A stretch of 44,502 nt of DNA from Chloroflexota bacterium (GTDB lineage: Bacteria; Chloroflexota; Anaerolineae; UBA1429): NCBI GenBank assembly GCA_021372475.1, contig JAJFUJ010000070.1, forward strand, positions 1 to 44,502, in the 5' to 3' direction. This document shows positions 36,593-38,660 of this stretch, piece after piece. Every line of letters begins with the position of its first letter. Within the stretch, counting starts at the first letter, position 1. Under the pieces are notes generated by a model, which had not been told where the DNA came from, searched no databases, and saw only the letters and a program-made list of their open reading frames with translations. The position numbers and the translations under genes were made by a program.

Positions 36593-37579
36593 TTATTCGG
36601 GAATCTCTACGGGGTACCCGGCATCAATCCAGGCCGCGAAACCGCCCAGGAGCACCACGGTCGTATCAGCCGAAAAACCTTTTTGGATGAGTTCAAGCGC
36701 CACACGGGCGCTTGTCGCTTCATCCTGTCAAGTGCAGTATAAAATGAGTGTCTTGTCCTTTGGCAGCGTGTCCATCAGGTCGAGTGCCTGAGCCTCTGGC
36801 AAGGAGATGGCGCCTTGCGCATGCTGACGCTCGTAGGCATCCGCAGTGCGCGTATCGACCAGCACTGCCTGCCCTTCATCAATCATCTTTTTGGCATCCC
36901 CCACAGAAATCCGTGTGATTGCGCTGGTTTCAGAGACCGCCGTCGCTGTGGGTGTGGTTTGACCGCCGGAACCGCGAGCTGCCAGCACGACCGCATAAAT
37001 AATGACCATCGCCAGGATACCCAAGATAATCAAAAACATAACTCTGTCGCTGTTGTGCGCCTTACGTTTTGAAGGGCCTTTCTTGTTAGCACCGCTTGTT
37101 TTACTAGCGGACTGGCTCTTCCCTGTCTGTGCTTTGGCGCGCATAGATGCTTTACCGGCAGCGTTCTTACGCGCCGGTTCCGGAGCTGCCGCAGCTTGCG
37201 CCGCGCCCCTGGCAGATTCCGTTTTCTCCTGAACGCGTCCCTCTGTGGCTTGGGTAGCCACAGGCCGCACGGCCGGTTTGACTGCCGGTACAATTTCCTG
37301 CGCCGCCGGCGGCAGTTCAGCCGGTACTTGCTCAGACGGAGAGAGTTCGCTGAGCTCTTCCTCGGGCTGCGCCGCTTCGCCCTCCTCGCCCTCTGGCCCG
37401 GGAGCGCTTTGCTCCTGTACGGTGCGTTTGCCGAATATCGCCTTCAGTGGGATTTTGGGCGTACCTTCGTCTTGAATGTTCGGACGAACAACATTTTTTG
37501 TTGGAGGATTGGCTTTAGGTTCATTCTCTTGTGACAGGTTATCCAAGCTCGGTTTATAAATCGTAACCTTTCCCGGCAT
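36593..37579 (-). CDS. Membrane-anchored rhodanese with in-frame UGA (predicted selenoprotein)
   Basis: A 328-residue product if TGA at 36730-36728 is read as selenocysteine (position 284); otherwise it stops after 283. Seen: an acidic and proline-rich N-terminal region (1-135), a Lys-rich stretch (138-173), one membrane helix (180-201), then a rhodanese domain (about 221-328). The active loop reads YCT-U-QDEATSAR, with Cys282; homologues of this type usually carry Cys at the U position. After the TGA the frame runs 44 codons through LLGGFAAWIDAGYPVEIPE to TAA, the normal rhodanese end. The positive-inside rule puts rhodanese outside. AGGAGG precedes the ATG at 37579. A nonsense mutation or sequencing error is the alternative. 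Confidence 0.8.
36685..36730 (-). promoter_or_regulatory. Bacterial SECIS-like stem-loop following the UGA
   Basis: Starting two bases after the TGA (36730-36728): lower stem GGATGA/TCATCC (36725-36720 with 36690-36685), internal loop AGCGA/AAC, and upper stem CAAGCGCC/GGCGCTTG (36714-36707 with 36701-36694). The five-base loop CGTGT occupies 36706-36702. All pairs are Watson-Crick. The apical loop begins 21 bases after TGA and has G at position 2, within the published bacterial SECIS pattern as I recall it (about 16-37 bases, G in the first two loop bases). It also codes protein, so chance pairing is not excluded. Confidence 0.75.
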
Positions 37580-37670
37580 ACCCGCCTCCTGTGCGTTTGT
37601 TGTTTCTAGTCTAGCGCGTCCTTTTGTCGTAGGCAAATCAGCCGGCAGCGTCGTGGCCATCGCGCTTTTT

Positions 37671-37767: not shown

Positions 37768-38031
37768 GTGGCGTTTAAAATAACGGATGAATGCATCGCC
37801 TGCGGCTCGTGTGAGAGCGAATGCCCGAATGGGGCTATCTCAGAAGGCGAAGAAATCTATGTGATCGACGCAGACAAGTGCACCGAGTGCGTGGGCTTTT
37901 TCAGCACTCAACAGTGCTTCGATGTTTGCCCGGTCGAGGCTCCAGTTCGCGATGACGATAATGCTGAAACCCAGGATGATCTCCTAGCGAAATTCCGCAA
38001 ATTGCATCCGGGCAAGCAGCCCAAGCTGTAA
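37768..38031 (+). CDS. 2[4Fe-4S] ferredoxin (Allochromatium type)
   Basis: An 87-residue soluble ferredoxin. Seen: cluster motif 1 [11 protein letters not shown] (Cys9, 12, 15, 19) and motif 2 CTEC-x8-C-x3-C (Cys38, 41, 50, 54). The longer gap between the second and third cysteines of motif 2 and the C-terminal extension mark the Allochromatium/YfhL type, usually low-potential. The start is GTG at 37768, with AGGAGG five bases upstream. It is transcribed alone from a good promoter and ends in a terminator. Divergent to the rhodanese gene; it could feed the FTR-like protein at 2409, but that is speculation. Confidence 0.93.
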
Positions 38032-38132: not shown

Positions 38133-38660
38133 ATGACAATACGAAATCGGTGGCGCAAAATTGCCGTCTATGTCATTGCGCTGGTAATGATTGCTTTGGA
38201 CCAATGGACCAAGCATCTGGTGCGCCTCAATCTGCCGCTCAACCGCGACGTGGCGCTCATCCCCTGGCTCGATAGACTGTTCACTTTTACTTATGTGCAA
38301 AACACCGGCGGTTCATTCGGCCTTTTGCCTGGTATTGGGCTGCCGTTCATCATCGTGGCCGTTGTCGTCGTCGTCCTCATCGTCATCTACAGCCGGCGCC
38401 TCGCTAACAACCACTGGCTGTTGCGCCTGGCCTTGGGGCTGCAACTCGGCGGCGCCATTGGCAACCTGATTGACCGTATCGTCTACGGCTATGTTACCGA
38501 TTTCATCAACTTCCGCTGGTGGCCCGTCTGGAACGTGGCCGATGCTTGTCTCGTCGTCGGCACTATCCTGTTCCTGATTTATATGCTTTTCCTCGATAAG
38601 CCTGCCGCTGAACCCGCCGGCGCTGAGCCGCCGGCTGAGCAGCCTGGAGCGCAGGGATGA
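38133..38660 (+). CDS. lspA: Lipoprotein signal peptidase (signal peptidase II)
   Basis: Removes signal peptides from diacylglyceryl-modified prolipoproteins in the cytoplasmic membrane. 175 residues, four membrane helices. Seen: DQWTKHLVR (Asp23), FTYVQNTGGSFGLL, GNLIDR, and the catalytic aspartates in VTDFINF (Asp123) and NVADA (Asp137). The C-terminus has a Pro/Ala/Glu tail. AAGGAG lies six bases before the ATG. It overlaps the pseudouridine synthase by four bases, a very common pairing. The window itself encodes at least three likely substrates (lipoproteins at 8779, 31208, 42007). Confidence 0.96.
   Translation: MTIRNRWRKIAVYVIALVMIALDQWTKHLVRLNLPLNRDVALIPWLDRLFTFTYVQNTGGSFGLLPGIGLPFIIVAVVVVVLIVIYSRRLANNHWLLRLALGLQLGGAIGNLIDRIVYGYVTDFINFRWWPVWNVADACLVVGTILFLIYMLFLDKPAAEPAGAEPPAEQPGAQG

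Follow-up and report, generated by a model that had tools for sequence, protein, structure and literature searches.

Rhodanese selenoproteins in which cysteine and selenocysteine (Sec, U) form a CxU motif are already known. A 2026 review (PMC13188914) catalogues them, with one Sec, under the name 'rhodanese-like domain-containing protein form 3', and PMC9312934 lists them as 'COG0607 form 2, CxU'. TsoB (NF045694, rhodanese/DsbD fusion-like) is a further selenoprotein with a rhodanese domain, and it carries two Sec in a UxxxxU motif. The single-domain rhodaneses GlpE, PspE and YgaP hold their Cys in a canonical cradle loop. Prx-like and FmdB-like selenoproteins are examples with two closely spaced Sec, there in a UxxU motif (PMC9312934, PMC13188914).

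Here, we analyse a rhodanese gene with an in-frame TGA from a Chloroflexota bacterium (contig JAJFUJ010000070.1 of assembly GCA_021372475.1). The whole stretch of 44,502 nucleotides that was analysed is referred to as the window. The gene adds a further CxU selenoprotein gene to this known kind and belongs to a subfamily that scores below the curated cut-off; CxU rhodanese selenoproteins as such had been catalogued before (PMC13188914; NF041203). Its best NCBIfam match is NF041203 (rhodanese_LYCAU, 'rhodanese-related (seleno)protein') with 85.3 bits and E 2.6e-24, below the cut-off of 115 bits; eight relatives also stay under this cut-off with 60-103 bits. The protein shares with NF041203 the rhodanese domain, the CxU motif and Sec at the same place, but has CTU instead of CAU, a long low-complexity N-terminus, a membrane anchor, and close relatives with a UxU motif. 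TsoB agrees with it in the rhodanese domain and the presence of Sec, and differs in motif and architecture (18.1 bits against the NF045694 cut-off of 805). With GlpE, PspE and YgaP it has the fold and the VD(V/T)R motif in common, whereas CxU, a spacing two residues longer and the lack of a Gly/Arg cradle set it apart. The UxU relatives resemble the Prx-like and FmdB-like selenoproteins in their two close Sec, but these have unrelated folds and UxxU spacing. The main text of PMC13188914 makes no mention of UxU, and a word search of open-licence papers for UxU selenoproteins had a single match, on mammalian SELENOP. Within the reach of these searches, the UxU relatives represent a variant not described before.

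Organisation of the gene

The gene is located at 36593-37579, as the initial annotation had it, and is encoded on the minus strand; a plus-strand reading of the same positions yields a nonsense translation. The following features were assigned, with their basis in brackets.

36593..37579, minus strand: complete gene for a protein of 328 residues, Sec being residue 284; ATG at 37579, TAA at 36593-36595
37585..37590, minus strand: ribosome-binding site AGGAGG, 5 nt upstream of the ATG (direct reading)
37043..37579, minus strand: N-terminal region, low-complexity and A/P/E/K-rich (translation)
36977..37042, minus strand: hydrophobic segment VMFLIILGILAMVIIYAVVLAA, probable membrane anchor (direct reading)
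36596..36934, minus strand: rhodanese domain with the TGA inside (Pfam match and fold)
36734..36736, minus strand: Cys282 codon TGC, first CxU residue, TGA in the UxU relatives
36728..36730, minus strand: in-frame TGA, codon 284, very probably read as selenocysteine (motif LYCTU)
36685..36725, minus strand: SECIS hairpin (covariation and published bacterial model)
36694-36714, minus strand: SECIS upper stem, inner 5 bp formed by 36707-36711 with 36697-36701
36702-36706, minus strand: SECIS loop CGUGU, 21 nt after the TGA

The low-complexity N-terminal stretch of about 180 residues has no family match and is followed by the single hydrophobic segment, which carries basic residues on its N side. 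Judging from this charge pattern, the rhodanese domain would face the outside of the membrane. With the TGA taken as U, the frame that opens at ATG 37579 closes with ...KTLILYCTUQDEATSARVALELIQKGFSADTTVVLLGGFAAWIDAGYPVEIPE, directly before the TAA. The Pfam family Rhodanese (PF00581) aligns over the TGA from profile position 2 to 101 of 102, with E 1.2e-14 and 55 bits against a curated cut-off of 22.2. The original observation of a rhodanese that reads on through the TGA is confirmed.

Relatives in the order, class and phylum

A close homologue with an in-frame TGA was found in 5 of the 15 genomes searched in the order, the source genome included. The source genome has one TGA and the other four have two, located at the two motif positions (e.g., LUTUPDEASSAR, FYUTUPQEASS and FYUAUPAEATS). 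For the class, a profile search of 396 genomes was performed and the best loci were extracted. This survey yielded about 70 CxU and 10 UxU loci with the TGA always at the motif, which suggests a widespread selenoprotein family in the lineage of the window gene. Comparison of homologues at codon 284, proposed in the initial annotation as a check, thus gave TGA in about 70 homologues of the class. The annotation's premise that many such rhodaneses have Cys here was not borne out in the class survey: almost no Cys occurs there, and CxC was found only in one distant group of three loci. The simple replacement of Cys by Sec that had been derived from it does not fit either, as Sec is the norm of the lineage and the nearest relatives carry it at the first position too. 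Across 42 aligned members, no residue other than C or U occurs at either motif position. One further locus (L120) matched the motif by accident, sits on a long branch in the tree, and was left out of the members. The three distant rhodaneses (L100, L108 and L116) have CAC or CGC followed by HEED and no TGA at the motif; they are a possible Cys counterpart.

A pattern combining UxU with the start of the SECIS was scanned over 400 genomes of the phylum. It gave seven further matches, each in a gene for this type of rhodanese; the reversed pattern, used as a control, had no match. Altogether, 17 UxU genes (L038, L039, L040, L041, L043, L044, L064, L068, L078, L086 and L127-L133) were collected in ten families of the phylum (f1, f8, f14, f16, f23, f42, f78, f96, f103 and f125), and these include the four nearest relatives of the window gene. 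On the tree, UxU corresponds to four to five changes, a rough figure given the few columns and many unresolved forks. The same pattern had no match in viral contigs, blastn against phage records gave no match, and a plasmid search returned ordinary rhodaneses only, with less than 60% identity.

The membrane-anchored form had been regarded as unusual, but in many relatives, too, an N-terminal segment and then a hydrophobic one precede the rhodanese domain. The N-terminal segment often has zinc-ribbon-like CxxC pairs: L047, L048, L050, L052, L055, L059 and L063 carry CxxC...CxxC before the hydrophobic segment, whereas this part of the window protein is of low complexity.

The SECIS hairpin

Since an Rfam search of the hairpin returned no match, its assignment as SECIS relies on covariation and on the published bacterial model (PMC13188914), which describes a G within the first two nucleotides of the loop and a spacing of 16-37 nt. 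The window hairpin agrees with this model, with 21 nt from UGA to loop and the loop CGUGU. In the UxU genes, the first UGA is 27 nt and the second 21 nt from the loop, both within 16-37 nt. The hairpin occurs at a fixed distance from the (second) UGA in 67 distinct homologues, and its inner 5-bp stem is complete in 65 of them; 500 sets of synonymous-codon shuffles left the inner stem intact in 7.6% on average and 17.9% at most. Paired changes of the stem among homologues include GCGCC/GGCGC, GUGCC/GGCAC and CAGCC/GGCUG. The loop Arg is encoded by CGT in 70 of 74 cases, and the six of the 67 surveyed homologues with Gly in its place all use GGT. The VDxR motif of these genes contains an Arg that is just as conserved, and for it CGC prevails (50 of 78). 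The window hairpin folds with -21.3 kcal/mol (z -3.7). For most homologues the folding energy of the individual sequence is unremarkable, with a mean z of about -1, and the synonymous shuffle is decisive.

Decoding of the in-frame TGA

The source genome (3.26 Mb, 98% complete) was searched for selA, selB, selC and selD, as the initial annotation had recommended, and all four are present: selA with E 9e-132, selB with E 5e-104 and above the cut-off, selC as a tRNA-Sec with anticodon TCA, and selD with E 9e-103. As selA is found in 317 of the 396 genomes of the class, its co-occurrence with the TGA rhodanese is weakly informative. By hand tally, 65 of the 72 genomes with a TGA rhodanese contain selA, and several of the seven without it are incomplete.

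The selD gene (L019, G000:C35:1537-2469) is itself a selenoprotein gene, with an in-frame TGA within AAGUGSKK.

Several other meanings of the TGA have to be weighed. A chance in-frame TGA is excluded, since TGA is retained at this codon by the homologues in the class. Ordinary gene calling terminates the gene here, which would suit a true stop, a sequencing error or a broken gene; yet about 80 loci in many families keep the TGA at the position of codon 284, which refutes this reading for the family, and the protein beyond the TGA is conserved while the hairpin is under synonymous-site constraint. For the window gene itself we hold it to be very improbable. Genome-wide reassignment of TGA to another amino acid would likewise keep the frame open. 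This is contradicted by the neighbouring lspA-like ORF at 38133-38660, which stops at a TGA overlapping the ATG at 38657 (ORF table), as well as by the complete Sec machinery and by the location of the TGA at a redox motif with a SECIS after it, and leaves reassignment with hardly any probability. Sec machinery, TGAs of the homologues and the covarying SECIS all agree with Sec at codon 284, the central claim of the initial annotation. As judged from these sequence data, the UGA is almost certainly decoded as Sec via SelA, SelB, SelC and SelD together with a SECIS inside the coding sequence.

Domain model and putative function

The region 36596-36949 was modelled with AlphaFold2, with Cys substituted for Sec and with the 42 aligned members as input. 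The domain model has a pLDDT of 95 and a pTM of 0.89, and its best fold matches in the PDB are rhodaneses (probability 1.00), among them GlpE, YgaP and NADH-dependent persulfide reductases. Past the TGA lie about 45 of the 118 residues in the model, namely two helices and one strand. The predicted fold depends on this part, and a product terminated at the TGA would therefore lack more than one third of the domain.

In the model, a strand stops just before Cys282, the loop consists of C-T-U, and a helix begins directly after Sec. The canonical paralogue of the class that we modelled (L117) has the six-residue loop C-R-S-G-H-R before its helix, so that the helix starts six residues after Cys there and three residues after Cys here. 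The CxxGxR persulfide-cradle loop is absent: Gly and Arg are missing and the loop is three residues long. By the strand register, Cys282 falls on the canonical catalytic position, whereas by the helix register, which HMMER alignments to 6mxv and 3tp9 follow, this position is taken by Sec. In a gap-free alignment, Sec lies 17 residues before the conserved Gly, the same distance as the catalytic Cys in 6mxv and 3tp9, and the family of the window gene has two extra residues in this active-site region. As the two registers disagree, either Cys282 or Sec284 may be the attacking residue. In the UxU members, Sec occupies the catalytic place under either register.

Because the canonical persulfide-cradle loop is missing, a thiol/selenol redox dyad formed by the C/U pair appears likelier than plain sulfurtransfer, and in absolute terms we give such a dyad roughly an even chance. 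The early start of the helix and the invariable C or U at both motif positions speak for it as well; the reading draws on a model made with Cys in the place of Sec. Cys282, as first residue after the strand, would take the position of the canonical catalytic Cys, and Sec284 would adjoin it at the start of the next helix. One member of the dyad may attack a sulfane sulfur, a disulfide or a similar substrate outside the membrane, the other would resolve the intermediate as a selenenyl sulfide, and a reductant would then reopen it. In the UxU relatives, a diselenide would stand in place of the selenenyl sulfide. That all parts hold jointly, namely a membrane-anchored extracytoplasmic rhodanese-fold domain, the Cys282-Thr283-Sec284 loop, Sec decoding and the redox-dyad mechanism, is in our judgement about evenly balanced.

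Two other functions compete with the redox dyad. The protein could be a classical sulfurtransferase equipped with Sec, in which Sec284 (or Cys282) passes on sulfur as a persulfide or selenosulfide in the manner of GlpE and PspE. The PDB fold matches and the distance of 17 residues from Sec to Gly speak for this, while the missing cradle, the three-residue loop with its early helix, and a second redox residue that is invariant beside Sec speak against it; we consider it possible, if rather unlikely. Still less probable is the handling of selenium or of a metal or metalloid at the cell surface, e.g., binding of Cu, As or Hg by the C/U pair. It would be in line with the heavy-metal P-type ATPase with HMA domains that adjoins the gene in 3 of 17 inspected loci (L141:1726-3831, L143:4808-6928 and L147:4540-6957), a further one nearby in L139, FTR1 in L135 and an arsenite-methyltransferase-like methyltransferase gene in L139. 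These counts are small, however, and most loci, the window included, have no such neighbour.

The UxU variant

Taken over the phylum, the UxU relatives probably represent a multi-family variant of the rhodanese fold with a UxU active site, in which one SECIS serves two UGAs 6 nt apart, which was gained or lost several times relative to CxU, and which would form a diselenide redox centre outside the cell. Ordinary gene calling ends genes of this family, CxU or UxU, at the TGA, so that the rhodanese domain is truncated and overlooked. The UxU variant offers a test of how a single SECIS can direct Sec at two UGAs so close together, and of what the cell gains when Sec replaces both residues of a redox pair; CxU and UxU within one family provide a ready comparison.

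Genomic neighbourhood

No conserved neighbour that points to a substrate was found in the inspected loci. In the window, the neighbours comprise a xylose-isomerase-like TIM-barrel gene, housekeeping genes and a small ferredoxin gene (Fer4 domains) at 37768-38031, which is divergent from the rhodanese gene, with the two starts about 190 bases apart.
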